The position numbers were made by a program, and so were the translations under genes. From positions 1 to 54,647 of the forward strand of contig SVEQ01000017.1 in NCBI GenBank assembly GCA_015057325.1: DNA of 54,647 nucleotides. The letters run 5' to 3'. Position 1 is the stretch's first letter. Every line of letters starts with the position of its first letter. Shown here piece by piece: positions 15,862 through 32,507 of this stretch. Origin of the DNA: Lachnospiraceae bacterium. Its GTDB lineage: Bacteria; Bacillota; Clostridia; Lachnospirales; Lachnospiraceae. The notes below the pieces were generated by a model, which saw only the letters and a list, made by a program, of their open reading frames with translations, searched no databases and was not told the origin of the DNA.

Positions 15862-18213
15862 ATGTTTGAATTGATTAGAGAAAACCAATTAAATATTATG
15901 TTGCTTCTTTGCGGAGCGTGTGCCGCCATTACATTGCTTTTGGTAATTACAAGATTTATATCAAATAGCAGGAAGAACGTATTGATTTTAATGGAAGTAA
16001 TTGCTTTCTTCCTGTTATGGTTTGACAGACTGGCATACATTTATTCCGGTGTGGAAACAAAAAAAGGCTATAACATGGTAAGGGTGAGCAATTTTGCTGT
16101 CTTCTTTCTTACATCAGCGATAGTTTGTGGATTTAACATGTATCTTATTGACTGGTTGAAACATGAAGGTGGAATGAAAGAGACACCTGGAAGACTTAAG
16201 TTTGTAGCGATAGTGTCTACTCTTGGAATGTTGCTTTCGATTGTATCAGCATTTACAGGCTTGTATTACTATTTTGACAGTGCTAACCGTTATCATAGAG
16301 GAAGCGGTTTCCTTATTGCATATATCATTCCGGTTGTCTGTCCGATTGTTCAATACACCGTTATTCTTCAGAAACGCAAGCTGTTTAGCAGAATAATATA
16401 TGTATCCTTGAACTTGTATATATTTGTTCCGATTGTATGCGGAATAGTACAGATATTTGCATATGGTATTTCCATAGTTAACATGTCTATGGTGCTCGTG
16501 TCCATTTTCTTATACATTTTCACATACATCGATATCAATGATGAGGTGGAACGTGTACATGAGTCGGAAATGGATGACATGAAACAGGAACAGAATAACA
16601 TGAGAAGGCTTTTCGACCAGACGGCAACCGCCTTTGTTAAAGCAGTTGAGAGAAAGGATGATTTTGCAAAGGGACATTCTGAACGTGTTGCTACGTACGC
16701 AAGAAGAATTGCCGAGATTTATGGTAAAAATGAAGAAGAATGTGAAAGAGTGTATTATGCTGCACTGCTTCATGATGTCGGAATTATAGGAGTTCCTGAC
16801 AACGTTATCAAAAATGAGGCCAATCCCGATAAATGGGATTACGAAGTAATCCGAAAGAAACCTGAAATTGGTAGAGAAATACTTTCCGATATTACAGAGT
16901 ATCCATACCTTAGTCAGGCTGCTTATTACAGTCATGAAAGATATAACGGAACAGGATATCCGGAAGGATTATCGGGAAAAGATATTCCGGAGATTGCAAG
17001 AATCGTTGCGGTTGCGGATGCATTTGCGACCATGACAAGTAAGAAAAGATATCGTGATGCCAAGCCTGAGTTTGTTGCAAGAGAAACATTTGTCAAAGGC
17101 GCAGGGGAGGAGTTTGACCCTGAGTTTGCAAAAATAATGGTCAAAATAATTGATGCAGATTCGGACGATAAGCAGAATGAAGAATTATTATCGGTTCCGG
17201 AAGAATTACATTGTAATGAATACAGAGATGCGATTACGCCGGGTATAGAAATAGACCGTGAGAAGGTTAAAATAACTTTCGATTGCGAACCGTCCAAAGA
17301 AGCTAAGTACAGTGCACCGTCAATTATTTTGTTTGAGTCGTTTGATAAACGAGTTCATAATAATGCAAAGACGATTGCGGCATACTATTATCTTGAATAT
17401 GCAGAAGCATGGTTTGATAATAATGTTATAGATACTGCCGCAAGAAAAATAGAGGTTACAAAGTCAGAGGAAAAAGAAGACTCTAACAACTCGCACTATG
17501 AGATTGTTGCTGCAAGATACGAGGATCATTTAAGACTTCGTATGACAAGTCCGACACACATGAAAGAAATGATTGTTGCACTTCCAAGCGGTTCAAAAGG
17601 AGCTTATATTGGACTTACAGGTGAACATTGTGATATAACTAATATAAATGTTGAGCAAACCGGCGAGTGCGTGGGCACATATGATATTCCGCGAATTGCT
17701 GATGAGATAAGCTATATTGACCGTATTGAATCTGATGTTAAAAATATTCAGATTGACAGAACACGTTCGGCGACGACTATGGGAATCGAGATTGAAGATA
17801 AACTTCAGATTAACTTCCATACAATGAGTCTGCCGGATTCGAAGTTCGTTTGGCATTGTCCGTACATTGTAATTTTTTACTCCGATAATCAGACGGTTGG
17901 AGGCCCGAATTACCGTGAGTACGCGCTCATTAAGTTAAACGGCGAAAATGAAGTTAAAGGTAATTATGCCGAGAACAGATTTGTCATGAAGAGAAAAGAT
18001 TCATTCCCAGGCTGGGAAGAATGGAAGGCTGTCAATCAGAAGGGAATGGAGTGCGAGGTTGTTATAGAAAGAAGCGGTAATCGTGTTGTTACCCATACAG
18101 AGAATCTTGGTATCGAAATCGAGAATACAACTACGATTAGTGAGCTTATGGATAATGTGTATGTTGCGCTCACCGGTGATCAGTGTGCATTAACTGATAT
18201 AAGACTTAAATAA
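15862..18213 (+). CDS. membrane HD-GYP protein with duplicated C-terminal domain
   Basis: 783 residues. About seven membrane helices occupy residues 1-225, followed by a short coiled linker and an HD-GYP domain (LLHDVGIIGVPD with HD at 304-305; HERYNGTGYPEGL near 358). The usual HDVGKI Lys is Ile here, while HD and GYP motifs are intact. The last 320 residues hold two related beta-rich units, 461-598 and 641-783. They begin GIEIDREKVKITF and GIEIEDKLQINF and end GLTGEHCDITNINVE and ALTGDQCALTDIRLK. I cannot name this domain. AAGGAG lies nine bases before the ATG and the hybrid kinase stop is six bases upstream, so the genes are likely co-transcribed. Confidence 0.88.
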   Translation: MFELIRENQLNIMLLLCGACAAITLLLVITRFISNSRKNVLILMEVIAFFLLWFDRLAYIYSGVETKKGYNMVRVSNFAVFFLTSAIVCGFNMYLIDWLKHEGGMKETPGRLKFVAIVSTLGMLLSIVSAFTGLYYYFDSANRYHRGSGFLIAYIIPVVCPIVQYTVILQKRKLFSRIIYVSLNLYIFVPIVCGIVQIFAYGISIVNMSMVLVSIFLYIFTYIDINDEVERVHESEMDDMKQEQNNMRRLFDQTATAFVKAVERKDDFAKGHSERVATYARRIAEIYGKNEEECERVYYAALLHDVGIIGVPDNVIKNEANPDKWDYEVIRKKPEIGREILSDITEYPYLSQAAYYSHERYNGTGYPEGLSGKDIPEIARIVAVADAFATMTSKKRYRDAKPEFVARETFVKGAGEEFDPEFAKIMVKIIDADSDDKQNEELLSVPEELHCNEYRDAITPGIEIDREKVKITFDCEPSKEAKYSAPSIILFESFDKRVHNNAKTIAAYYYLEYAEAWFDNNVIDTAARKIEVTKSEEKEDSNNSHYEIVAARYEDHLRLRMTSPTHMKEMIVALPSGSKGAYIGLTGEHCDITNINVEQTGECVGTYDIPRIADEISYIDRIESDVKNIQIDRTRSATTMGIEIEDKLQINFHTMSLPDSKFVWHCPYIVIFYSDNQTVGGPNYREYALIKLNGENEVKGNYAENRFVMKRKDSFPGWEEWKAVNQKGMECEVVIERSGNRVVTHTENLGIEIENTTTISELMDNVYVALTGDQCALTDIRLK

Positions 18214-20664: not shown

Positions 20665-21735
20665 ATGTGGTTAGTTAATTTTATCAACAAAGACGTTGTT
20701 GCACAGAACGAGAATAAGCGCAGCATGGTTGCTTTGAGGATATTGTACATGGTTTTGTTTGTTGCTTTTGCAGCAGATGTTTTGGCATTTGGAGTGGATG
20801 CCTTTAATGTATTTCCATATAGAGTTTTTGGCTTCTTTGCCGTTAATATAGTGCTTTTTGCATTAACCTACAATACGAGAACAAGAACATCGGTAATAAT
20901 GTTTGTGTTTTATGTTTTTGCATGGACTTTGGCGATGATTCCCTGCTTTGGATGGAGTGCGGGAATGCAGAATTATTATATCATAATTTTGATGTTATGC
21001 TTTTTTGCAGTACCCGGAAAACCTGCGTATAAGTTCGTGTTAGCGTCGATTGTTCTTGTTGCAAGAATTGCAACGATAGGAATATATGGAGGCGTTAAAC
21101 CGATTGCTGAGATAGCATCAATTCAGGATAAGATATTGCAGATTAGTAACATTTCTGCCGTATATATAGCAATTATATTGATATCATACATTTACAGTCA
21201 TGATGAAAATGAAGCTGAAGGTAAGCTTATGAAGTACAACGACAAGCTTAAGAAAGAGGCGGGTACGGATCAATTGACTGGACTTGTCAACAGAAGAAGA
21301 GCGCTCGAATATTTGCAGGAACTTCGAGATGCTAGTTTTTCAAGTTTTATAAGTATTGCTATGGGTGATATTGACTTCTTCAAGAAGGTTAATGATACAT
21401 ATGGCCATGACGCAGGAGATGAAGTGCTTAAGTCGGTAGCTAATACAATGAAGGAAGTCTGCGGCTCAAAAGGACTTGTATCGCGCTGGGGTGGAGAAGA
21501 GTTTTTGATAATATTTGTAGATGTCAACGGTGATGATGCATTTATTGATATGGAGAAATTAAGACGCGAGATTTCTAAGAGGACAATAGTTGTAGGTGAG
21601 CAGAAAATCAATATAACCATGACGATTGGACTTACGGAATACAATATCAAAAAGAACATTGAGAATGCTATCAAAGAAGCAGACGAGAAATTATATCTTG
21701 GTAAGACGAACGGAAGAAATCAGGTAGTATACTAA
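20665..21735 (+). CDS. membrane diguanylate cyclase (GGDEF)
   Basis: 356 residues. About six membrane helices fill residues 25-180, followed by a short helical linker and a GGDEF domain beginning DQLTGLVNRRRALEYL. The active site is WGGEEF near residue 275, an accepted variant of GGDEF, and the metal-binding GDIDFFKKVNDTYGHDAGD is intact. It should make c-di-GMP from two GTP. The inhibitory I-site RxxD expected just before the active site is absent (CGSKGLVSRWGGEEF), so product feedback through that site is unlikely. The DUF342 gene begins 34 bases downstream. Confidence 0.93.
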   Translation: MWLVNFINKDVVAQNENKRSMVALRILYMVLFVAFAADVLAFGVDAFNVFPYRVFGFFAVNIVLFALTYNTRTRTSVIMFVFYVFAWTLAMIPCFGWSAGMQNYYIIILMLCFFAVPGKPAYKFVLASIVLVARIATIGIYGGVKPIAEIASIQDKILQISNISAVYIAIILISYIYSHDENEAEGKLMKYNDKLKKEAGTDQLTGLVNRRRALEYLQELRDASFSSFISIAMGDIDFFKKVNDTYGHDAGDEVLKSVANTMKEVCGSKGLVSRWGGEEFLIIFVDVNGDDAFIDMEKLRREISKRTIVVGEQKINITMTIGLTEYNIKKNIENAIKEADEKLYLGKTNGRNQVVY

Positions 21736-21769
21736 ACATGAGTTTTCACCTTGATCGGAGGTTGTTACT

Positions 21770-23185
21770 ATGGAGAACAAGCAACAGACAGATCCAATCA
21801 GCGAAAATCCAATTAAGATATTTATATCCGAAGATAAGATGAATGCTTATCTTTTCCTTGCAATTCCTCAGGAAGGACAGGAAGCATACAAAGAGTCGGA
21901 GATTTATGACGCAATTGCCGCAGCGGGAGTTAAGGGGCAGGTTAATAAGGATGTCATTAGTCAGATGCTTTCCTCGGGATGGTATGGAAGTAAGAGACTT
22001 ATATGTGAGGGCATACCGGTTAGAGACGGTGTCGACGGATATTTTGAGTATTTCTTTCATCAGAAGGATGAGAAGAGCGGTAAACCGCGCGTGTTAGACG
22101 ACGGTTCTGTTGATTATACAAGTGTTAATACGGTTGGTACCGTATCAGAGGGTGACCTTATTGCAATCTATCATCCGGCAATTCCCGGACATTTTGGATA
22201 TACGGTTACGGGCGAATTATTAAAGCCTAAGATTCCCAAAGGTTATCCGGTGCCGCAGCTTAACGGTTGTCGATATGATGAGAGTACATACTCTTATTAC
22301 GCAACAATAGATGGTAAGGTTGAGGCTACCAATACGAAGCTTCAGGTAACCCAGACGTTACAGATTAACAAGAACATTAATGTTGCTTTTGGTAGCATTT
22401 ACTTCATGGGTGATGTTGAAATATATGGTGACGTGGATTCGGGCGTTGAAATAACTGCAAGTGGTTCTGTAACAATAGGCGGAAGTGTTCAGGGCGCAAG
22501 TATTATGGCAGGTGAGAGTATCACGATTAGAGGCGGAATACTTGGTGATGACAATACGCGTATTTCCTGCGGTGGAGACTTAGAAGCACGTTTCATGCAG
22601 TATGTCAATGTTGTTGCGGGTGGCAATGTTACGGCTAAGTCAATTCTTGACTGTAATGTTCGTGCAGGAGGAATGGTGTTGATTGAAGATACCAACGGAC
22701 TTATATCGGGCGGTTTCATTTACAGCACCAAGGGTATTGACGGACAGGCGTTTGGTAATAAACGTTCGGTTAAGACTATACTTTCTGCCGGAAAGAACAA
22801 TAAGATATTGGCTGATAAAGTGGAGTTTCCAAGGCTTATACAGGAACTTGATTTGAAGCTTACGGGAATTAACAGTCGCGAGATTCAGTTAGACAGAGAA
22901 GCCAAGAAGGATCCCACCAAAAAGAAATCCAATATGCTTCATATAATTAGACAGAACAAGGCAAGAATATTGGCTGAGAAGAAACAATTAGAGGCTGTAT
23001 ATGCAGCATATGACAACATGAATAATTCGGCAAACGCCAGGACAATAATAAAGGGTAGGAAGTTCTTCCCGGGTGTTATTGTTGAAATCGACAACAAAGA
23101 CTATTCAATAGATTTTGAAATGATACTTGTTTCATTCAGGAATAATGAAGAAGGGATTTCCTATGTTCAGGAGAGTGATGAATGA
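21770..23185 (+). CDS. DUF342/FapA family protein
   Basis: 471 residues. The N-terminal half has the family look (EGDLIAIYHPAIPGHFGYTV, then GYPVPQLNGCRYDE). A right-handed beta-helix-like stretch of GSVTIGGSVQGASIMAGES-type repeats follows (about residues 205-330), then a C-terminal helical region rich in Lys, consistent with coiled coil. DUF342 proteins are called flagellar assembly protein A in some genomes, and their biochemical role is poorly known. It is placed behind a GGDEF gene, and its stop overlaps the next start as ATGA. A role in c-di-GMP-linked surface functions is inference from context. Confidence 0.82.
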   Translation: MENKQQTDPISENPIKIFISEDKMNAYLFLAIPQEGQEAYKESEIYDAIAAAGVKGQVNKDVISQMLSSGWYGSKRLICEGIPVRDGVDGYFEYFFHQKDEKSGKPRVLDDGSVDYTSVNTVGTVSEGDLIAIYHPAIPGHFGYTVTGELLKPKIPKGYPVPQLNGCRYDESTYSYYATIDGKVEATNTKLQVTQTLQINKNINVAFGSIYFMGDVEIYGDVDSGVEITASGSVTIGGSVQGASIMAGESITIRGGILGDDNTRISCGGDLEARFMQYVNVVAGGNVTAKSILDCNVRAGGMVLIEDTNGLISGGFIYSTKGIDGQAFGNKRSVKTILSAGKNNKILADKVEFPRLIQELDLKLTGINSREIQLDREAKKDPTKKKSNMLHIIRQNKARILAEKKQLEAVYAAYDNMNNSANARTIIKGRKFFPGVIVEIDNKDYSIDFEMILVSFRNNEEGISYVQESDE

Positions 23186-24690
23186 TGCAGGAAAAGCAAC
23201 ACTATTACATCGCAATAGATTTAAAGTCCTTTTACGCTTCGGTAGAGTGTAGGGAACGCAAACGTAATCCGCTTACCACCAATCTGGTGGTGGCGGATTT
23301 TTCGAGAACGGAGAAAACAATTTGTCTTGCAGTGACGCCCTCGCTTAAGGCTTTCGGGATACCCGGAAGAGCGAGGCTCTTTGAGGTTGTGCAGAAAGTA
23401 AAACAGGTTAATGCCTCAAGAAGAACGAATGCACCGGGTGGAGAGTTTAGTGGCAAATCAGATGATGCAATAGAGCTTGAGAATAACCCGGAGCTGGAGC
23501 TTGATTATATCGTTGCGCCTCCGAGAATGGCGCTTTACATGGAATACAGCACACGCATTTATAATATCTATTTAAAATACATTGCGCCCGAGGATATACA
23601 TGTATATTCCGTTGATGAGGTGTTTATTGATGTGACGGATTATCTTAACACGTATAAGATGTCACCAAGGCAGCTTGCAAGCAAAATGATTAAAGAAGTG
23701 CTTGATGAGACGGGTATAACGGCAACAGCGGGAATCGGAACGAATATGTATCTTTGTAAAATTGCTATGGATATTGTGGCAAAACATATTCCTGCTGATA
23801 AGGACGGAGTGCGTATCGCCAAGCTTGATGAGCTAAGGTACAGACAGCTTTTGTGGGAGCATAAGCCGATTACGGATTTCTGGCGAGTTGGAGGCGGTAT
23901 CGCAAGAAAGCTTGCAAAGTACGGAATGTACACAATGGGGGACGTCGCGAGATGTTCCATTGGAAAGCCTTCGGATTTTCATAATGAAGAGCTTTTGTAT
24001 AAGCTTTTTGGTGTAAATGCTGAGCTTTTAATTGATCATGCATGGGGCTATGAGCCTTGTACGATAGAATATATCAAGGCATACAAACCTGAGAATAACA
24101 GCTTGGGTTCAGGACAGGTGCTGCAAAACCCATACGAGTTTGATAAGGCAAGAATTGTAATTCGTGAAATGACCGAGGCGTTGGTGCTTGATTTGGTTGA
24201 TAAGAGACTGGTTACAGATCAGCTTGTAATTACTGTCGGTTATGATATTGAGAATTTAACCAAAGATAATATTCGCAATTCTTATACGGGAGAGGTTACG
24301 GTTGACAGGTACGGAAGAAGTGTGCCTAAGAGTGCACATGGAACAACCAATCTTAACAGTCACTCTTCGTCAACGGAAGAGATTGTTAACGCGGTTATAG
24401 GACTTTTTGATAACATTGTTGATGAAAGACTCCTTATAAGAAGAATGTATGTGACGGCTAATCATGTAATAACGGAAAGTGCAGCGAATAAGAATAAGTA
24501 TGAACAGTTATCCTTATTTGATATGGATAATGAAAGAACGATTGATAAAGATGATGAGAGGAATATCCAGGAGGCGGTTTTATCAATACAGAAAAAGTAT
24601 GGTAAAAACGCATTACTAAAAGGGGTAAGCCTTATGGACGGTGCAACAGCAATGTCAAGGAATAAACAGATTGGAGGACACAAGGCATGA
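23182..24690 (+). CDS. Y-family DNA polymerase (UmuC/DinB-like)
   Basis: 502 residues. Translesion polymerase signatures are AIDLKSFYASVECRER near residues 10-26 (first metal-binding Asp and the steric-gate region) and YSVDEVFIDVTDY near 142-154 (catalytic Asp-Glu). GIGTNMYLCKIAMD and a helix-hairpin-helix-like WRVGGGIARKLAKYGMYTMGD follow. The C-terminal little-finger region is present, so the enzyme looks intact. It overlaps the upstream stop (ATGA, also an ATG three bases later) and the downstream start, so it is the middle gene of a coupled set. It is of the class that pairs with YolD in Firmicutes, often SOS-induced; no LexA box is visible because the gene is internal to a transcript. 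Confidence 0.93.
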   Translation: MMQEKQHYYIAIDLKSFYASVECRERKRNPLTTNLVVADFSRTEKTICLAVTPSLKAFGIPGRARLFEVVQKVKQVNASRRTNAPGGEFSGKSDDAIELENNPELELDYIVAPPRMALYMEYSTRIYNIYLKYIAPEDIHVYSVDEVFIDVTDYLNTYKMSPRQLASKMIKEVLDETGITATAGIGTNMYLCKIAMDIVAKHIPADKDGVRIAKLDELRYRQLLWEHKPITDFWRVGGGIARKLAKYGMYTMGDVARCSIGKPSDFHNEELLYKLFGVNAELLIDHAWGYEPCTIEYIKAYKPENNSLGSGQVLQNPYEFDKARIVIREMTEALVLDLVDKRLVTDQLVITVGYDIENLTKDNIRNSYTGEVTVDRYGRSVPKSAHGTTNLNSHSSSTEEIVNAVIGLFDNIVDERLLIRRMYVTANHVITESAANKNKYEQLSLFDMDNERTIDKDDERNIQEAVLSIQKKYGKNALLKGVSLMDGATAMSRNKQIGGHKA

Positions 24691-25109
24691 GTGCATATGA
24701 CGATATAATTAATCTGCCACATCCAACATCGGCCAATCATCCGCGCATGAGTATGCATAACCGTGCAGCTCAATTTGCGCCTTTTGCGGCACTTACCGGT
24801 TATGAGGATGCAATCGACGAGGAAGGAAGACTAACCGAGGACAAGATTGAATTGGATGAACAAAGACGGGAAGTGTTGGATGAGAAGATCAGATTGTTGA
24901 TGGATCATCGTGATATGAAGCCTGATGTTAAGATTACTTATTATGTGCCTGACAAGAGGAAAGAAGGAGGGGCATATAATGAATATGAGGGTGTCATCAA
25001 AAAGATTGATGTTACAAAACATATAGTGGTTTTTGAGGACGGATTTGAACTGTTGGTCGAGAATTTGTTTGATATAGAAAGTTCAATATTTAATGGGATA
25101 TTTGATTAA
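24687..25109 (+). CDS. YolD-like protein
   Basis: 140 residues, no signal peptide. The N-terminal RMSMHNRAAQFAPFAALTGYEDAI is the hallmark of YolD-like proteins. The C-terminal half (DVKITYYVPDKRKEGGAY, then IDVTKHIVVFEDG) resembles the small WYL/Sm-like beta fold proposed for this family. YolD-like genes are regularly found beside UmuC-type polymerases, as here, where ATGA overlap implies translational coupling. A role as polymerase accessory factor is proposed for the family but not established. Confidence 0.85.
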   Translation: MSAYDDIINLPHPTSANHPRMSMHNRAAQFAPFAALTGYEDAIDEEGRLTEDKIELDEQRREVLDEKIRLLMDHRDMKPDVKITYYVPDKRKEGGAYNEYEGVIKKIDVTKHIVVFEDGFELLVENLFDIESSIFNGIFD

Positions 25110-25126
25110 GTTTTCAGAAAATTTCA

Positions 25127-25155
25127 TTGACATTTAGAAAAAATAGTGATAAAAT
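25127..25155 (+). promoter_or_regulatory. promoter driving the c-di-GMP riboswitch leader
   Basis: Consensus TTGACA (25127-25132), a 17-base spacer and TAAAAT (25150-25155), preceded by TGa as in an extended -10. Transcription would start near 25162, just before the aptamer. Confidence 0.8.
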
Positions 25156-25164
25156 ACATTATAA

Positions 25165-25275
25165 GTTGAATATATGGGCAAAGCAAGGGAAACTTTGTGA
25201 CGCAAAGCTATAGGGCCTTTAACATGGCAGCCAGTTGCTTTTCTGATAGACATCAGAAGATTTACAAGATTTAGA
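25165..25275 (+). ncRNA. c-di-GMP-I (GEMM-I) riboswitch
   Basis: The sequence shows the conserved GEMM-I core in order: GGGCAAAGC (25176-25184), a short hairpin with GAAA tetraloop (25189-25192), GACGCAAAGC (25199-25208), a second hairpin containing GGGCC, and the ATGGCAGCCAGTTGC segment (25224-25238) that carries the tetraloop receptor and ligand-binding side. A tctgat/atcaga hairpin and an intrinsic terminator follow. Bases 25171-25180 can pair with 25281-25290 in ten contiguous pairs, competing with the terminator stem. The controlled gene is probably the amidase at 25638, or the intervening RNA. Confidence 0.88.
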
Positions 25276-25277
25276 AG

Positions 25278-25313
25278 CATTGCTCATATAACAATTTGAG
25301 TGGTGTTTTTTTT
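25278..25313 (+). terminator. riboswitch terminator
   Basis: A 9-bp stem (cattgctca 25278-25286 with tgagtggtg 25297-25305, some G-U pairs) is followed by eight T. Its left arm overlaps the segment that can pair with the start of the aptamer. Confidence 0.75.
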
Positions 25314-25324
25314 GTTATACATGT

Positions 25325-25465
25325 GGGGTGTGTTCTCTGATTTTTGAATCCGCAAGTGGCATTAAGTGTCACGAACGGAAAAGTGTGTGTCGAATCGGTC
25401 GGGCGTTAAAAAGGTTTCTCTCAAATAGTTATAATGCCCGATAAAACATAATTCCCCTTTACAAG
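25325..25465 (+). ncRNA. candidate structured RNA of unknown class
   Basis: Between the riboswitch terminator and a second strong terminator there is no reading frame, but there are several pairings. These are tggca/tgtca (25357-25361 with 25367-25371) inside ccg/cgg (25350-25352 with 25376-25378), and a 9-bp stem tcgggcgtt/aatgcccga (25399-25407 with 25433-25441) closing a 25-base loop. I do not recognise a known riboswitch or housekeeping RNA. It could be a second regulatory leader element for the amidase or an independent small RNA. From 25503 to the amidase start nothing further is evident except AT-rich leader. Confidence 0.4.
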
Positions 25466-25502
25466 ACCGTCATGCTGCATTTTGTGCAGTATGGCGGTTT
25501 TT
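25466..25502 (+). terminator. strong intrinsic terminator
   Basis: A 14-bp stem (accgtcatgctgca 25466-25479 with tgcagtatggcggt 25485-25498) with loop ttttg is followed by a T run. It ends the candidate structured RNA or attenuates the amidase transcript. Confidence 0.85.
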
Positions 25503-25637
25503 CCGTGCGTTAGATTAAAAGATGTGATAAGATAACGAAAAAGAGATAACGAGAAAACATATGTTTTGAGGTTGCGGGAATGAATAAAGTGCTTTTCGGA
25601 ATATATATAAACATAGGGTAATTGGAGATTGTTTGTT

Positions 25638-26894
25638 ATGAGTAGATTGCGTTTTGCATTTTTAATTGCATGTTTGGTTTTGGTGGCTTTTATACCTGTT
25701 AAGGTTAAGGCAAGTTCGCAGGAGAAAACTATAGTTATTGCACTTGACCCCGGACATGGCGGAGAGGAAAATGGTGCAGATTATTACGGCGAGAAAGAAA
25801 AGGACGTTAACCTACAGATTGCTAAGTATGTCAAAGAGGGGCTTTTGCAGTATGACAATGTTGAGGTGTTTTTGACGCGAGAAGATGACACGGAACTTAA
25901 TTTGCAGGAAAGAGCAGACAGAGCCGCATCTGCAGGTGCTGACATGTTTATAAGTCTTCACTGTAATGCGAGTGCCACACATCAAAGTAACGGTGCATCA
26001 GTCTATATAAGTACCGGAGAGGCTAATAGGAAAAGGCTTATGGATTTTGCCGATTACTTCCTGGGAGAGTTTGAAGCCATAGGTCTTAGAAATGCGGGAA
26101 CATTTGCCAGGGTAACCCAGATGGGCTACAGAAGAAATGACGGAAGCTTTCAGGATTACTATGGTGTGCTTCGACATGCCTACAACAATGGAATGCCGGC
26201 ACTCTTGGTAGAGCATTGTTTTATGGATTGTCCTACGGATTGGGAGTTTGTAAGAAGTGATGAAGGGATTAGACAGCTTGCCGCTTGCGATGTGAATGCG
26301 ATAGCAGCCTACTATGGATTAAAGAATCGTGACGGCAACATTTACGAAGGAAAGCATGCTAAGGTGTATGGTGCGACTTCAAAGGGCGTTGGAATGAACT
26401 GCTACGATGCTCCAAAGCTTACGAGGATTGAACTTATGGAATATGATGGTAAAACTCCGTCGATGGCAAAGTATAAGGTAAGTGTAGAGGACAAAGTTGG
26501 CGTAAGTTCGATATATCTTGTGTATAAGAACTCTTCCGGCAACAGCGTTACCGTAAGTCTAATGATAGATGAACCTCTAAAAACAGGAAGTTACGAGCTT
26601 ATGGCTTATATTCCGGATGGTTTAGAACTAAGTAACCACACTCTTTCGTATGTCGGTCTTTATAACAAAGCAGGGTATGACGCAGGTTATAACTATTCAG
26701 GTGGAAGACTTGTCGGATTTGGTAAGTGTGACTGGCTAAATGAGTTTGGCTATGGCGGCTCTGCCAATCTTTCTGTCAGCAGCGAAGGGGTGCTGTCTAG
26801 GACATATATAAAGAAACTCGATTGCCAGATAAAACTTGGCATAAAAAGAAGACAGGACGTATATCCTGTCTCCCTGATTAATTCTATTAATTAG
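25638..26894 (+). CDS. secreted N-acetylmuramoyl-L-alanine amidase (Amidase_3)
   Basis: 418 residues. The signal peptide (RLRFAFLIACLVLVAFIPVKVKA) is cleaved near residue 26. The Amidase_3 zinc-enzyme domain follows, with ALDPGHGGEENGA, the second ligand region, FISLHCNAS and the catalytic Glu in LLVEHCFMD. It cuts the bond between MurNAc and the stem peptide of peptidoglycan. The C-terminal ~170 residues form a beta-rich extension (VSVEDKVGVSSIYLVYKN) of unknown role, perhaps wall binding. ATG 25638 is preferred over TTG 25629 by spacing from ggag. It lies downstream of the c-di-GMP riboswitch and converges with the PilZ gene, the stop codons overlapping. Confidence 0.9.
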   Translation: MSRLRFAFLIACLVLVAFIPVKVKASSQEKTIVIALDPGHGGEENGADYYGEKEKDVNLQIAKYVKEGLLQYDNVEVFLTREDDTELNLQERADRAASAGADMFISLHCNASATHQSNGASVYISTGEANRKRLMDFADYFLGEFEAIGLRNAGTFARVTQMGYRRNDGSFQDYYGVLRHAYNNGMPALLVEHCFMDCPTDWEFVRSDEGIRQLAACDVNAIAAYYGLKNRDGNIYEGKHAKVYGATSKGVGMNCYDAPKLTRIELMEYDGKTPSMAKYKVSVEDKVGVSSIYLVYKNSSGNSVTVSLMIDEPLKTGSYELMAYIPDGLELSNHTLSYVGLYNKAGYDAGYNYSGGRLVGFGKCDWLNEFGYGGSANLSVSSEGVLSRTYIKKLDCQIKLGIKRRQDVYPVSLINSIN

Positions 26895-27259
26895 TGGTGG
26901 CTTTCTTCTTCGTGCTCAACCAACTTCTCATAGTCATCAAAAATATAATTGAAAATGCCGGCAAGACCAACGAACTCACAACCATATCTGTAATTGCCGT
27001 CTTCTAACTCGGTTACGTTAAGAATCTTAACAACGGTAAGGATCTTCTGCTCAGAAGATTCCATAACTATTGTTGCGTTGAAATAGTAACCTTCAGGAAG
27101 GTATGTAGTTGTTGTAAAACCGATACCTGCCTTGCTGATATCAAATACATGGATCTCAGCATCAAGACCGCTGATTTTGTTATTATCCTGTTTGAATACT
27201 TCAGATACTTCAAGATTCAATTGAATAGGAAGTCTTTTGTATCTACGCTTTTCACTCAT
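26891..27259 (-). CDS. PilZ-domain c-di-GMP receptor
   Basis: 122 residues forming a single PilZ domain. The N-terminal binding motif RRYKRLP (RxxxR type) and DISKAGIGF (D/NxSxxG type) are both present, so c-di-GMP binding is expected. The rest is the PilZ beta-barrel (YYFNATIVMESSEQKILTVV, YRYGCEFVGL). I choose ATG 27259 because GGAGGG lies six bases upstream; the longer frame from 27280 would place that site inside the gene. The C-terminal HEEESHH tail is His-rich. It is monocistronic and transcribed towards the amidase. Confidence 0.9.
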   Translation of the reverse strand: MSEKRRYKRLPIQLNLEVSEVFKQDNNKISGLDAEIHVFDISKAGIGFTTTTYLPEGYYFNATIVMESSEQKILTVVKILNVTELEDGNYRYGCEFVGLAGIFNYIFDDYEKLVEHEEESHH

Positions 27260-27370
27260 AATGTGCCCTCCAATCGTCATTTATAATATCGATTTGAAAT
27301 ACGCTATTAAGTCATACGCATATATTGTAACATAAGCCTTTCAAAATAACAAATAAAATCGCTTTTTCAT

Positions 27371-27399
27371 TTGACAATTTGTCCCAAAACAGTTACTAT
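27371..27399 (+). promoter_or_regulatory. sigma-A-type promoter for purB
   Basis: TTGACA (27371-27376), a 17-base spacer and TACTAT (27394-27399). It lies in the 213-base gap divergent from the PilZ gene. I see no guanine-riboswitch core in the leader. Confidence 0.65.
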
Positions 27400-27493
27400 T
27401 TTTATTGAGTGTATAACCATACAGTAACTTCGCAGGCACCATTTAAATAAATGTGCGTGCGGTTAAAATATGAATAATTTTTTAGGAGGCACT

Positions 27494-28942
27494 ATGAAGG
27501 ATAAATACGTAAGCCCATTATCAGAAAGATACGCAAGTAAGGAGATGCAGTACATTTTCTCTCCTGATATGAAGTTTAAGACATGGAGAAAGCTTTGGAT
27601 TGCATTGGCAGAGACAGAGAAGGAATTGGGTCTCTCAGAGAACGGTAACCCGGTTATCACTGATGAACAGATAGAAGAACTTAAGGCATTTGCTAATGAT
27701 ATTAATTACGATGTTGCCAAGAAGAGAGAGAAGATTGTACGTCATGATGTAATGAGCCACGTATATGCATACGGTAAGCAGTGTCCTGCAGCAGCGGGAA
27801 TCATACACTTAGGTGCAACAAGCTGCTACGTTGGAGATAATACAGATGTCATTATTATGACAGAAGCCATGAAACTTGTTAGAAAGAAACTTATCAATGT
27901 TATCAACGAACTTTCCAAGTTTGCTATGGAGTATAAGGATCTTCCTACTTTGGCATTTACACATTTCCAGCCTGCACAGCCTACAACAGTTGGTAAGCGT
28001 GCAACTTTGTGGATGGAAGAACTTATGCTCGACTTATCAGACCTCGATTACATGATAAGCCAGCAGAAGTTACTTGGATGTAAGGGAACAACAGGAACAC
28101 AGGCAAGTTTCCTGGAGCTCTTTAACGGTGATCATGAGACAGTAAGAAAGATTGACGGAATGATTGCTGAGAAGATGGGATTTACCGATTGCTATCCTGT
28201 ATCGGGACAGACTTACTCACGTAAGGTAGATACAAGAGTACTTAACGTTCTTTCGGGAATTGCACAGAGTGCTCACAAGTTCTCAAATGATATCCGTTTG
28301 CTTCAGCATTTAAAAGAGGTTGAAGAACCGTTTGAGAAGAACCAGATTGGTTCATCAGCTATGGCATATAAGAGAAATCCGATGCGTTCAGAGAGAATCG
28401 CTTCACTTGCTAATTATGTTATGGTAGATGCACTTAATCCTGCAATCGTTGCAGCAACACAGTGGTTTGAGAGAACACTTGATGATTCGGCAAACAAGAG
28501 AATTTCCGTACCGGAAGCATTTCTTGCAATAGACGGAATACTTGATTTGTATTTGAACGTAGTAGATGGTCTTGTTGTTTACGATAAGGTTATTTACCAG
28601 AGATTCATGAAGGAGATTCCTTTCATGGCAACTGAGAACATCATGATGGATGCCGTTAAACGTGGCGGTGACCGTCAGGAGTTACATGAGAAGATAAGAG
28701 AGCATTCAATGGCAGCCGGAATGGTTGTTAAGAAAGAGGGTAAGGAGAACGATTTGGTAGACAGAATCGCTAATGACCCGGCATTTGGAATGACTAAGGA
28801 AATGATTCAGGAAGTATTGGATCCTAAGAACTTTGTAGGACGTGCGCCACAGCAGACAGAAGAGTTTGTTAATGAGGTAGTTAAGCCGGTATTGGATGCC
28901 AACAGCGCACTTCTTGGATTGACAGCAGAAATTAATGTATAA
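27494..28942 (+). CDS. purB: adenylosuccinate lyase
   Basis: Acts twice in purine synthesis, cleaving SAICAR and adenylosuccinate with release of fumarate. The 482 residues include TSCYVGDNTD, the catalytic-His region (LPTLAFTHFQPAQPTTVGKR) and the fumarase/lyase superfamily signature GSSAMAYKRNP near residue 290. AGGAGG at 27485-27490 fixes the ATG; a longer frame starting at 27470 would include the ribosome site. No other purine genes are nearby. Citrate synthase follows after 17 bases and is probably co-transcribed. Confidence 0.97.
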   Translation: MKDKYVSPLSERYASKEMQYIFSPDMKFKTWRKLWIALAETEKELGLSENGNPVITDEQIEELKAFANDINYDVAKKREKIVRHDVMSHVYAYGKQCPAAAGIIHLGATSCYVGDNTDVIIMTEAMKLVRKKLINVINELSKFAMEYKDLPTLAFTHFQPAQPTTVGKRATLWMEELMLDLSDLDYMISQQKLLGCKGTTGTQASFLELFNGDHETVRKIDGMIAEKMGFTDCYPVSGQTYSRKVDTRVLNVLSGIAQSAHKFSNDIRLLQHLKEVEEPFEKNQIGSSAMAYKRNPMRSERIASLANYVMVDALNPAIVAATQWFERTLDDSANKRISVPEAFLAIDGILDLYLNVVDGLVVYDKVIYQRFMKEIPFMATENIMMDAVKRGGDRQELHEKIREHSMAAGMVVKKEGKENDLVDRIANDPAFGMTKEMIQEVLDPKNFVGRAPQQTEEFVNEVVKPVLDANSALLGLTAEINV

Positions 28943-28959
28943 CAGGAAAGGGTGATTGT

Positions 28960-30345
28960 GTGAATAACAACCACAGAGAGAGAATAAATGATTATTCAAG
29001 AGTAACTGATGAAATAAAAGGACTTTCAGAACTTTGTCTTGAGAATCTTAAGATTGATCAGGATTTGTATTCTAAGTATGAGGTTAAGCGTGGTCTTCGT
29101 GACCTTGACGGCAAGGGTGTTTTGACAGGACTTACTGAGATTTCGAAAATCCAGTCGTACATTGTAGAAGACAATGATATGATACCTTGCGAAGGTAAGC
29201 TTTACTATCATGGTGTTGATGTAGAAGATATCGTTGCAGGCTTCATGGAAGAAAAGAGATTCGGATTTGAAGAGACAGTATATCTTTTGTTGTTTGGAAA
29301 ACTTCCTTCAAAAGATGAGCTTAAAATGGTGTCTGATATATTGGCGGATTACAGAACCTCATTGCCGACACATTTTGTAAGAGATATTATTCTTAAGGCA
29401 CCAAGTAAGGACATGATGAATACACTTCAGAGAAGTGTTCTCACATTATATGCTTATGATGAGAAGGCAGATGACATATCAATTCCGAACGTGTTAAGAC
29501 AGTGCTTACAGCTTATATCGGTTGTTCCGCTTCTTTCAGTATATGGTTATCAGGCATACAGTCATTATCATGATGGCAACAGTTTGTTTATACATACACC
29601 GAGAAAGGATTTGTCGACAGCAGAGAATATTCTTCATTTGCTTCGACCTGACAGTAAGTATAGTGAGTTAGAGGCAAGAATACTTGACCTTGCACTCGTT
29701 ATTCATGCAGAGCATGGTGGTGGTAACAACTCAACATTTACAACTCATGTTGTAACATCATCAGGAACAGATACATATTCTTCAATGGCAGCTTCTCTTG
29801 GTTCCCTCAAAGGTCCTAAGCATGGTGGTGCCAACATCAAGGTTACCAAGATGTTTGAGGAGATGAAGAGTGAAGTTTCCGATTGGAATGATGATGAAGA
29901 GATTAAGGTATATCTGAAGAAATTGCTTCATAAGGAAGCATTTGATAAAGCAGGCCTTATATATGGTATGGGACATGCGGTTTACTCGATATCAGATCCG
30001 AGAGCCAAGGTTTTCAAGGGCTTTGTTGAGAAGCTTTCAATTGAGAAGGGCTACCAGGATGAGTATCAGTTATATGCTAATGTGGAAAGACTTGCACCTG
30101 AAGTAATCGCAGAAGAGAGAAAGATATACAAGGGCGTTAGTGCTAATGTCGACTTCTATTCGGGCTTTGTGTATCAGATGCTTGGACTTCCGAGTGAATT
30201 GTTTACTCCGCTTTTTGCTGTTGCGAGAATGGCAGGTTGGAGTGCACATAGAATTGAAGAGTTGATTAATCAAGGTAAGATTATTCGTCCGGCTTATAAG
30301 GCGGTTAAGAAGAATCAAACATATATCCCTATGGATGAGAGATAA
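28960..30345 (+). CDS. gltA: citrate synthase
   Basis: Condenses oxaloacetate and acetyl-CoA to citrate; cytosolic. The 461 residues include the Si-type signature LGSLKGPKHGGANIKVTKM, the active-site His regions (VIHAEHGGGNNS and MGHAVYSISDPRA) and the catalytic Asp region (NVDFYSGFVYQMLG). It is slightly long because of a ~60-residue N-terminal extension (YSRVTDEIKGLSELC). The start is GTG 28960, with gaaaggg upstream. In a fermenting Clostridia member it likely serves glutamate synthesis rather than a full cycle; that is inference. It ends in a terminator shared with the opposing kinase gene. Confidence 0.95.
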   Translation: MNNNHRERINDYSRVTDEIKGLSELCLENLKIDQDLYSKYEVKRGLRDLDGKGVLTGLTEISKIQSYIVEDNDMIPCEGKLYYHGVDVEDIVAGFMEEKRFGFEETVYLLLFGKLPSKDELKMVSDILADYRTSLPTHFVRDIILKAPSKDMMNTLQRSVLTLYAYDEKADDISIPNVLRQCLQLISVVPLLSVYGYQAYSHYHDGNSLFIHTPRKDLSTAENILHLLRPDSKYSELEARILDLALVIHAEHGGGNNSTFTTHVVTSSGTDTYSSMAASLGSLKGPKHGGANIKVTKMFEEMKSEVSDWNDDEEIKVYLKKLLHKEAFDKAGLIYGMGHAVYSISDPRAKVFKGFVEKLSIEKGYQDEYQLYANVERLAPEVIAEERKIYKGVSANVDFYSGFVYQMLGLPSELFTPLFAVARMAGWSAHRIEELINQGKIIRPAYKAVKKNQTYIPMDER

Positions 30346-30347
30346 GA

Positions 30348-30378
30348 AACAGCGGAGAATTACTTCTCCGCTGTTTTT
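30348..30378. terminator. bidirectional terminator between gltA and the kinase
   Basis: A perfect 12-bp stem (aacagcggagaa 30348-30359 with ttctccgctgtt 30364-30375) has loop ttac, flanked by T runs. The minus-strand kinase stop codon (30360-30362) lies in the loop, so one arm is coding sequence. Confidence 0.88.
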
Positions 30379-31616
30379 ATGCTTACAGTAAATGTTGTTA
30401 TTCCGTCGGCGCAATCGACGCCGATTTTTCCTTTGTGATTCGTTACTATTGTTTTGGCTATTGAAAGCCCCAAACCGAAATGTCCGCTTGCACGATGTCT
30501 TGATTCATCGGCACGATAGAATCTTTCAAACAGCTTCTCCCTTTCTTCTTCGGGAATTTCTTTTCCTGTGTTTGCTACAGTAAGATGTACATGGTGAGGT
30601 GTTTTCCATAATTTGACATTTATCTTTCCACCCTTGTCGGTGTGGGTGATTGCATTATCAATGAGTATTGCGACTACCTGTCCGATTTGCTCTTTTACGC
30701 CGTTTAGAGTGATGTCCGGTGTAATGTCTTCATAATCCATTATGATGCCCTTTTCAAACGCCACGCTCTCCATTGGAAGGACTCTTTCAAGAACGGCATT
30801 GCTCATGTCAAAATCATTTTTGGTAATCTCTTCGTAAGGAGTCTGCTCAAGATGTGTGAGTGTAAGCAGTGATGTGACAAGTTGATGCATACGGTCGCAT
30901 TCATCTTTGATGTATGAAAGCTGCTTATTCTCTCCTATTGAATCCTCCAACAACTCGCTGTTTGAAAGGATTACGGTAATAGGTGTTTTTAATTCGTGAC
31001 TGGCATCGGATATGAATTGCTTTTGCTTGTTAAATGCTTCCTCGACGGGTCTTACAAGCCAGCCTGATAAAAAGTACGATATCAATGCAAATATGAAAAT
31101 TGCAAGTATGCATGCGATAATGGAAATAATTAAAAGATTCTTTCCTGTACGTACTGCTGATGAGTGGTCGATAAATACTATCGTAATCTCGTCACCGTTT
31201 TCTCGCATCATGTACCGAAGCTGATCTATCGTTCCTTCCTTTTTATCTGCGGTTAAAATCTTCTCGCAATATGCAGTGATATCTTCATCTGTATAACTGT
31301 CGGATAAAGTGTTGTCAATCGACTTTAATTCCTTATCTTTTGTATAGCGAACCGTTATATGGTGAGCAACTGCCAACGCCATTCCCTTATCTGTGGGGAA
31401 GGAGGGAGGTGCGTTATCGGGTTTGTCACCCGGCATCATACCCGGCATGTTTCCGGGCCCGGTTTCTTTCTGCATAAGGATATTGAGACTTTCGTTAGCC
31501 ATGTTGCGGCTGCCACCGTGCATTCCCAAGTTGATGGCGATGATTATGGCAATAAATGTCGCAGAAAGCAACAGCATAAGTATTATCATAATTCTCTTAC
31601 GTAATTGCTTGGTCAT
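30360..31616 (-). CDS. sensor histidine kinase
   Basis: 418 residues. A membrane helix lies near residues 9-30, followed by an extracytoplasmic loop to ~170 that begins with a Met/Pro/Gly-rich stretch (GPGNMPGMMPGDKPDNAPP). A second helix is near 160-185. HisKA has SDASHELKTPI; the ATPase domain has the N box LIDNAITHTD and G boxes HFGLGLSIAKTI. It phosphorylates the response regulator encoded 28 bases upstream. The sensor type is not a named family; the Met-rich stretch hints at metal sensing. An AAGGAG-type site precedes the ATG. Confidence 0.93.
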   Translation of the reverse strand: MTKQLRKRIMIILMLLLSATFIAIIIAINLGMHGGSRNMANESLNILMQKETGPGNMPGMMPGDKPDNAPPSFPTDKGMALAVAHHITVRYTKDKELKSIDNTLSDSYTDEDITAYCEKILTADKKEGTIDQLRYMMRENGDEITIVFIDHSSAVRTGKNLLIISIIACILAIFIFALISYFLSGWLVRPVEEAFNKQKQFISDASHELKTPITVILSNSELLEDSIGENKQLSYIKDECDRMHQLVTSLLTLTHLEQTPYEEITKNDFDMSNAVLERVLPMESVAFEKGIIMDYEDITPDITLNGVKEQIGQVVAILIDNAITHTDKGGKINVKLWKTPHHVHLTVANTGKEIPEEEREKLFERFYRADESRHRASGHFGLGLSIAKTIVTNHKGKIGVDCADGITTFTVSIKTAEK

Positions 31617-31644
31617 AGTAATCTCCTTTATATAAGGTTAACAT

Positions 31645-32322
31645 TTACACGAGTTTGTAGCCTAACTTTCTTACTGTCTGTATTTGTGTTTCTGCTTTGA
31701 TAAATGAAAGCTTTTTTCTTAAGAAGGATATATATACCTCGACGTTGTTGTATTCGGCATCGGTATCATATCCCCAAATCTTTTCTATAATCTGTTCGCG
31801 GCTTATAATCTGTCCTCCGTTTCGAAGCAGATATTCCATAAGCTGATATTCCTTGCCGTTAAGAGCAATGCTACTTCCGGAAGTTCTGCAGTATAACTCG
31901 TTGCCACCTTGTTGCATGTAGATGTCGCCGAATGCGACCTCGGTAGGTGCTTCTGAGTCTGTTGACTGTCTTCTTGTAAGCGCACGCAGTCTTGCGAAAA
32001 GTTCTTCCCTATGGAACGGTTTTGTAAGGTAGTCGTCAGCACCAAGATCAAATCCTGTCACCTTGTCGTTTATCTCTGACTTTGCTGTAAGCATAAGTAC
32101 AGGTACGTGGATGTCCTGACTTCTTAACTCCTTAAGTATTTCAAGTCCGCTCATTTTCGGTAACATTATATCCAATATTATTGCGTCATAAACATCGGAT
32201 AGAGCATAATCAAGCCCTTCTTCCCCGTCAGCGGCATGATCTACTATATAATGCTCTGCTTTTAATGAAGAGCAAAGCGCTTCTGCAAAACCCTGCTCAT
32301 CTTCTACTAATAGAATTCTCAT
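31645..32322 (-). CDS. OmpR/PhoB-family response regulator
   Basis: 225 residues. The receiver domain has ILLVEDEQGF, acceptor Asp in LDIMLPKMSG, and LTAKSE and LTKPF switch residues. A winged-helix DNA-binding domain ends with EVYISFLRKKL and VRKLGYKL. I take ATG 32322 because GGAGGG is seven bases upstream and the receiver then begins canonically; the frame could extend to 32337. It is transcribed divergently from the adaptor/ABC operon, which it probably regulates. Confidence 0.94.
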   Translation of the reverse strand: MRILLVEDEQGFAEALCSSLKAEHYIVDHAADGEEGLDYALSDVYDAIILDIMLPKMSGLEILKELRSQDIHVPVLMLTAKSEINDKVTGFDLGADDYLTKPFHREELFARLRALTRRQSTDSEAPTEVAFGDIYMQQGGNELYCRTSGSSIALNGKEYQLMEYLLRNGGQIISREQIIEKIWGYDTDAEYNNVEVYISFLRKKLSFIKAETQIQTVRKLGYKLV

Positions 32323-32408
32323 TTTTAATCCCTCCAATTAAACCCTATAGATAATTATAATTTAGAAATGTTCTAAAAACAATATACCAACGAAATCTTA
32401 AATTAATA

Positions 32409-32424
32409 TTGAAATATTTTTCAA
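32409..32424. promoter_or_regulatory. candidate operator palindrome in the divergent gap
   Basis: TTGAAA-tatt-TTTCAA is a perfect 6-bp inverted repeat midway between the response regulator and the adaptor operon, a plausible binding site for either. No binding evidence. Confidence 0.3.
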
Positions 32425-32507
32425 CGTTTTTTTAAGGTTTCGTGGTTAACATGACAGACAAATGAAAAAGTCCGATGTGTTAAGCATTGAAGAATGGAGG
32501 AAATATC

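Follow-up and report, generated by a model that had tools for sequence, protein, structure and literature searches.

A c-di-GMP-I riboswitch, most likely an off-switch, that appears to have lost its target gene in a Lachnospiraceae genome

The DNA analysed here, referred to as the window, is a stretch of 54,647 nucleotides from a Lachnospiraceae bacterium, and all coordinates are positions in it. On its plus strand, the genes for a Y-family DNA polymerase and a 140-aa ORF without a Pfam match (together 23182-25109, assigned by Pfam and synteny; the ORF is presumably YolD-like) precede a leader made up of a sigma-70-type promoter, a c-di-GMP-I (GEMM-I) aptamer, a nine-pair hairpin just 3' of the aptamer (UUUUCUGAU / AUCAGAAGA, 25239-25260, from folding) and a predicted intrinsic terminator. 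Where a regulated gene would be expected there are only a short unmatched stretch and the last codons of an ORF, followed by a second strong hairpin and, at 25638-26894, a syntenic gene for an N-acetylmuramoyl-L-alanine amidase (Amidase_3, PF01520, 1.2e-36). The neighbourhood is c-di-GMP-related as judged by Pfam, with an HD-domain (HD_5) protein at 15862-18213, a GGDEF protein at 20665-21735, a FapA-like protein at 21770-23185 and, on the minus strand, a PilZ-domain protein at 26891-27280.

The aptamer was located with the Rfam covariance model RF01051, which matched 25167-25242 at 57.1 bits (E 1.3e-8, gathering score 35) over model positions 1-87 of 87, with no truncation; no other Rfam match in the window reached its gathering score. 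The earlier note on this DNA had recognised a GEMM-I c-di-GMP aptamer from the letters alone, and the covariance search bears this out. The GNRA tetraloop, GGCA and GACGCAAAG of the family are all present, the alignment showing GGGCAAAG, a GAAA loop and GACGCAAAG. The G before CA (25178; presumably G20 in Vc2 numbering) is taken by us to mark a c-di-GMP type rather than a cGAMP type. The ligand is thus probably c-di-GMP, in keeping with the GGDEF, HD and PilZ genes of the window.

The leader was compared with those of relatives. Seven leaders were used: that of the window, its five best non-self matches from a DNA search of 60 relatives (G004, G006, G003:C103, G024 and G012), and one from another genus of the family, G027, which was chosen after its pairing had been seen and is therefore not an independent test. 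The next-best match, G003:C17, was left out as its contig ends two bases past the aptamer. The aptamers of the five best-matching leaders score much as that of the window does (G004, 60.1 bits; G003:C103, 57.2; G024, 57.0; G012, 56.6; G006, 52.7). The promoter at 25127-25155 (TTGACA, 17 nt, TAAAAT) agrees with the consensus at 11 of 12 positions; its TTGAC is invariant across the seven aligned leaders, with a TAAAAT-like hexamer at the equivalent place. It is this conservation that supports it, since promoter-like sites in the region, four against a shuffle mean of 3.7, are no more numerous than in shuffles. Given the position of the promoter, the transcript should start a few bases 5' of the aptamer.

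The 5' strand of the aptamer at 25171-25181 (UAUAUGGGCAA; here P) can form 11 contiguous pairs, one of them G-U, with 25280-25290 (UUGCUCAUAUA; here T). The earlier note had described this helix as ten pairs joining 25171-25180 to 25281-25290; the helix stands, extended by one pair, and P includes the conserved GGCA bases of the aptamer, as had been remarked. The terminator occupies 25273-25313, with a stem of 25273-25286 and 25297-25310 and a U-run at 25306-25313, so that the left arm noted before (25278-25286) is real and reaches further 5', and the bases it shares with the long pairing number seven (25280-25286) instead of six. Having these seven bases in common, the terminator and the long pairing exclude each other. 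The pairing also takes up 25178-25179, which the Rfam model pairs within the aptamer; this agrees with the suggestion that it may exclude the ligand-binding fold, and on the same ground its reading as the closing stem of the aptamer, from which an on-switch would have followed, was rejected. Against a closing stem, too, the 3' strand of the aptamer (25233-25242) ends 38 nt before T. The terminator starts 30 nt past the end of the aptamer, and the full-length fold holds both aptamer and terminator. The terminator region (25250-25316) folds with a z of -2.8, and three of 200 shuffles folded equally well. A consensus terminator scan of 24600-25800, with its loop limit of 8, found none, missing both this terminator, whose loop is 10, and the hairpin at 25463-25501. 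The predicted structures are those of a transcriptional riboswitch, a hairpin with a U-run and a mutually exclusive antiterminator.

In all seven leaders, the sequence around GGGCA can pair with the left arm of the terminator in a helix of 9-15 pairs, which is kept although the spacer between the aptamer and the left arm aligns poorly. In G024, the longer spacer led to a misaligned terminator in the seven-leader alignment, and the helix was placed directly. Position -5, counted from the first G, is paired as U-A in two leaders, those of the window and G004, and as A-U in four (G024, G012, G006 and G003); in G027, two neighbouring pairs swap G-C and G-U, and pairs -4 and -5 are broken. The covariation in the P:T helix is real but modest, amounting to about one two-sided change that may have been a single event. 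In G003, the right arm of the terminator (AUAAUAUGGGCU) resembles the 5' strand of its own aptamer (AAAAUAUGGGCA), which is to be expected if both compete for one left arm. At the place of the hairpin 3' of the aptamer, the best helix has 5-9 pairs across the seven leaders.

The strength of the pairing was assessed against shuffled and foreign sequences. When P of the window was confronted with shuffled downstream sequence, 212 of 5000 shuffles reached 11 pairs and 8 of 5000 reached the duplex energy; two further set-ups gave 14/400 and 3/100. On the sequence of the window alone the pairing is thus suggestive, only moderately beyond chance; what makes it convincing is the comparison, in which G027 and the five closest leader matches all keep 9-15 pairs. 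Shuffled spacers reached the helix length of their own leader in 14 of 400 trials for the window, 0 for G004, 7 for G024, 9 for G012, 4 for G006, 54 for G003 and 26 for G027, the last two leaders not being outstanding by helix length.

Beyond this group the signal fades. Among 72 riboswitches (the 74 of 90 aptamers with a detected terminator, minus two rows anchored on GACA), the mean energy of P with its own terminator was -5.97 kcal/mol, a value reached in 23 of 2000 permutations of the terminators and only slightly better than their average of about -5.54; 14 own pairs were at -8.5 kcal/mol or better (permuted mean 7.0, maximum 17). In this test, shuffling terminators between near relatives makes the permuted values higher than they should be. 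In a second test, of 85 aptamers (those anchored on GGCA among the 90 found by motif in the loci taken, which are part of all matches), nine had at most 5 of 100 shuffles as good, with about four expected; five of the nine belong to the group of the window, G027 falling outside the nine and G012 being left out because its aptamer misses the search motif. Six less similar aptamers from this and nearby genomes, each with a detected terminator (G000:C7, G003:C8, G003:C11, G029:C34, G033:C28 and G027:C42:12145), pair with it weakly, at -2.7 to -6.7 kcal/mol. The P:T platform would thus belong to the group of the window, and as a general design of the family it is not established by these comparisons. 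The only other RF01051 match reported in the genome of the window, G000:C7:223423-223498, stands before an ORF longer than 1637 aa, in which Listeria-Bacteroides repeats and a chitobiase C-terminal domain were identified; the riboswitch lacks the long pairing (100 of 100 shuffles as good). In several family members, two or three RF01051 aptamers lie close together (for example in G309:C7, G309:C14, G131:C10 and G310:C26), the loci with such clusters including L128, L130, L132 and L152.

The direction of the switch was approached by folding successively longer transcripts. Up to an end at 25282, the fold in which the aptamer is held lies within 1 kcal/mol of the whole ensemble. At ends from 25284 to 25306 the long pairing is favoured, at 25290 by 6.5 kcal/mol (ensemble -36.6, long pairing -36.4, aptamer pairs held -29.9), and from 25310 on the aptamer together with the terminator beats it by 1.5-2.7 kcal/mol, all in energies that ignore tertiary contacts and kinetics. 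The same course is predicted for all seven leaders, the probability of the long pairing being 1.00 once T has emerged and 0.00-0.35 at the U-run, where the basal G-C pair of the aptamer has a probability of 0.20-0.86 (0.77 in the window, 0.20 in G006). Since aptamer and terminator can coexist and only the long pairing excludes both, the switch is most likely an off-switch, in which the ligand favours termination; the folding order likewise predicts termination if a ligand has stabilised the aptamer by the time the long pairing could form. Of the two directions left standing by the earlier note, it is thus the off-switch that is favoured, by the anatomy, by the folding of the growing transcript and by analogy with the class I switches of C. 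difficile (PMC9262584, PMC6366702), of which the seven functional ones are all described as off-switches, with a caution against extrapolation to other species (PMC6366702). For the cell, the direction is read from these models.

The course of events that we propose is as follows. As the polymerase leaves the promoter, the aptamer would fold first. If c-di-GMP is bound, the 5' strand (25171-25181) would be held in the aptamer, leaving T with the right arm of the terminator as its sole partner, and transcription would stop at about 25313. With no ligand, T would draw the 5' strand out of the aptamer, the terminator would be blocked and the polymerase would pass. In the relatives, read-through would then reach a gene for a transglutaminase/fn3-like protein, while in the window it should give only a non-coding RNA of about 340 nt, ending at the hairpin 25463-25501.

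Two other readings of the pairing were weighed. An on-switch, in which the ligand prevents the terminator from forming, has precedents in the GEMM-I class, namely Bc2 and Bc4 of B. thuringiensis (PMC4933901, PMC4759541) and pilM of Geobacter (PMC9262584), and 28 of the 74 riboswitches whose terminator was detected have its hairpin starting 61-75 nt past the GGCA motif, that is, within or beside the 3' strand of the aptamer, as would be expected of an on-switch. With Bc2 and Bc4 being on-switches and the genes downstream of Bc1, also of class I, hardly responding to c-di-GMP (PMC11218506), behaviour is not transferable by family; what counts at this locus is that the terminator begins well clear of the aptamer, so that the two do not compete, and that the long pairing, by its use of 25178-25179, is no closing stem. 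We therefore consider an on-switch very unlikely. It could also be argued that the long pairing arises by chance when the fixed GGGCA meets a terminator arm, as GGGCA pairs easily with UGCUC or UGCCC and an 11-pair helix somewhere in the 155-nt leader arose in 332 of 1000 dinucleotide shuffles. Against this, the pairing runs on past GGGCA and persists in the five closest leaders despite their poorly aligned spacers, and only one of 71 foreign terminators pairs with P of the window as well as its own does (-12.9 kcal/mol); chance is accordingly given very little weight, and an off-switch built on the long pairing remains our reading.

The gene that this switch would have controlled became apparent from a DNA search with 25110-25628, which in G004 matched the leader and, 1.6 kb further on, another part of the query. 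BLASTN blocks between the window and G004 stop at 25312 and resume at 25381, so that 68 bp in the window (25313-25380) stand in place of 1577 bp in which the regulated gene lies almost entire. Nothing else in 26 genomes of the genus matches 25310-25382 significantly, the best hit being 17 nt at E 0.066. Between the two matched parts, G004 has a gene of 545 aa from a GTG, or 535 aa from an ATG behind a plausible ribosome-binding site, with a transglutaminase core and an fn3 domain (Pfam) and a hydrophobic start from which the protein is probably secreted. What remains in the window is the last 15 codons and the stop (25381-25428), reading KCVSNRSGVKKVSLK, as compared with KCVSDWSGVKKVSLK at the end of the G004 gene, with in-frame stops just 5' of the remnant. 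From the terminator to 25628, before the amidase gene, there is no ORF of at least 90 aa; counting both strands, 25300-25640 has eight short ones, of 18-38 aa. The ORF directly after the terminator that would mark a cis-regulator is thus missing in the window. In the genome of the window, the matches to the G004 protein are no more than domain-level (best E 1.2e-14, in the fn3 part). Between 25320 and 25460, a further structured element or riboswitch was also sought. The idea was rejected because the Rfam matches are at chance level and far under their gathering scores (best 17.4 bits against 208, E 0.19) and because 25381-25428 belongs to the end of the lost gene.

Homologues of the G004 gene stand behind the riboswitch in G004, G012, G024, G003, G006 and G027. 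The Pfam transglutaminase core is above cut-off in G004, G024, G003 and G027 and below it in G012 (19.2 vs 23 bits), and the G006 gene is cut by a contig end, its first 226 aa lacking a Pfam match and being 54% identical to G004 over 136 aa. Within the genus, 6 of 26 genomes (G004, G012, G013, G024, G003 and G006) match at E 2.4e-45 or better, and in the remaining 20, that of the window included, no match goes beyond E 1.6e-23; among the sequences compared, the window is unusual in retaining the leader and the tail of the gene. The order polymerase, 140-aa ORF, riboswitch, transglutaminase, amidase, PilZ is complete in G004, G012 and G024. The locus L079 (RUG847) has transglutaminase, amidase and PilZ, and G003 and G013:C64 have transglutaminase and PilZ, the stretch compared showing no match to the amidase. 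In G003 (L054), the transglutaminase-like gene is split into overlapping ORFs (378-911 and 878-2251), which may reflect recurring decay of the target or a frameshift in the assembly. Over 21143-32749, the window and G004 (L078) share perfect runs, the longest of 325 bp, next to 50-nt stretches that are only 46-80% identical, a mosaic that suggests recombination between lineages. The stretch 25381-25537 matches G004 at 96%, and because of the mosaic a recent transfer is not pressed as its explanation.

The absence of the gene is most simply explained by a deletion in the lineage of the window, as read from a single assembly. That single assembly, and the presence of the gene in the sister genome G004, might instead speak for an assembly error. 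A collapse should join the flanks cleanly, and the junction carries 68 bp of unmatched sequence; it is internal to one of 24 contigs, in an assembly that is 99.3% complete, the assembly has no comparable copy of the gene elsewhere, and the gene is patchy in the genus in any case. We regard an error as highly improbable. A somewhat less remote alternative, though still a very unlikely one, is that the riboswitch controls the amidase gene by read-through, this being the next gene on the same strand, a plausible c-di-GMP target and part of a window rich in c-di-GMP genes. Between the two stands the hairpin 25463-25501, with 18 pairs and a U-rich 3' arm (-26.7 kcal/mol, z -6.0, 0 of 200 shuffles as good), which we take to be an intrinsic terminator and whose equivalent in G004 follows the transglutaminase gene and precedes the amidase gene. 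As this hairpin intervenes, a c-di-GMP leader for the amidase is judged unlikely; G012 and G024 likewise have the order riboswitch, transglutaminase, amidase, and the amidase gene is probably beyond the control of the riboswitch. Just before it, 25544-25610 has 74-75% matches at four places in G003 and two in G024 and is single-copy in the genome of the window. The leader might, finally, survive as an RNA in its own right that depends on c-di-GMP and serves as a ligand sink or acts in trans, since promoter and switch seem intact and the aptamer has lost nothing in score; it would then yield an RNA of about 150 nt at high c-di-GMP and one of about 340 nt at low c-di-GMP, and we attach very little probability to it. 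The undiminished aptamer score means that the deletion is recent or that the RNA is of some use, and we favour a recent deletion. Taken together, the window probably holds a c-di-GMP-I off-switch riboswitch that is now without a target, orphaned and presumably with no remaining function.

The direction that the earlier note had left open is thereby settled as far as sequence allows. A well-scoring riboswitch need not have a target, and an annotation of the amidase as c-di-GMP-controlled would probably be wrong. An intact switch beside a deleted gene also offers a start for asking how fast useless riboswitches decay.

Among described systems, the closest in design is Cd1, the flgB leader of C. 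difficile, a c-di-GMP-I off-switch whose terminator and aptamer do not overlap (PMC9262584, PMC6366702). Both have a GEMM-I aptamer followed by a hairpin and a distal terminator able to coexist with the aptamer, and in both (in the window by prediction) the antiterminator destroys ligand binding and the choice is made within a stretch of transcript lengths. They differ in the strand used, as far as the published description of Cd1 allows the comparison: its antiterminator is formed by T, A and H, A being the 3' strand of the aptamer (PMC9262584), whereas in the group of the window T pairs with P. An A:T antiterminator was tried and rejected for the window, where the best match of 7 pairs (25236-25242 with 25273-25279) is not kept in the other six leaders; these have 4-6 A:T pairs at no constant place, as against 9-15 P:T pairs across the group. 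Cd1, moreover, retains its genes, and the window switch does not. The 5'-strand antiterminator would be a detail of platform design and not a new kind of switch; the literature searched gave no description of it, and it may be known already. Set beside the 3' strand of Cd1, this naturally varied set of leaders would allow a clean comparison for co-transcriptional switching.

With Bc2 and Bc3-5 of B. thuringiensis, the window shares the aptamer class and an intrinsic terminator (PMC4933901, PMC4759541). The terminator of Bc4 is described as built from the 3' side of the aptamer, taking nucleotides of the binding site, P1 and P3, so that the ligand turns transcription on, whereas that of the window lies outside the aptamer (PMC4759541). 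Tandem c-di-GMP-I riboswitches before transglutaminase-like genes (COG1305) have already been reported in Bacillota (PMC12452182); aptamer class and kind of target gene match those seen here, but the loci studied here have a single aptamer, and in the window the target is deleted. Class I riboswitches without gene regulation are likewise on record in C. difficile (PMC6366702). In those reported cases the downstream genes are present and unresponsive to c-di-GMP, while in the window the gene itself is gone and only its tail is left.
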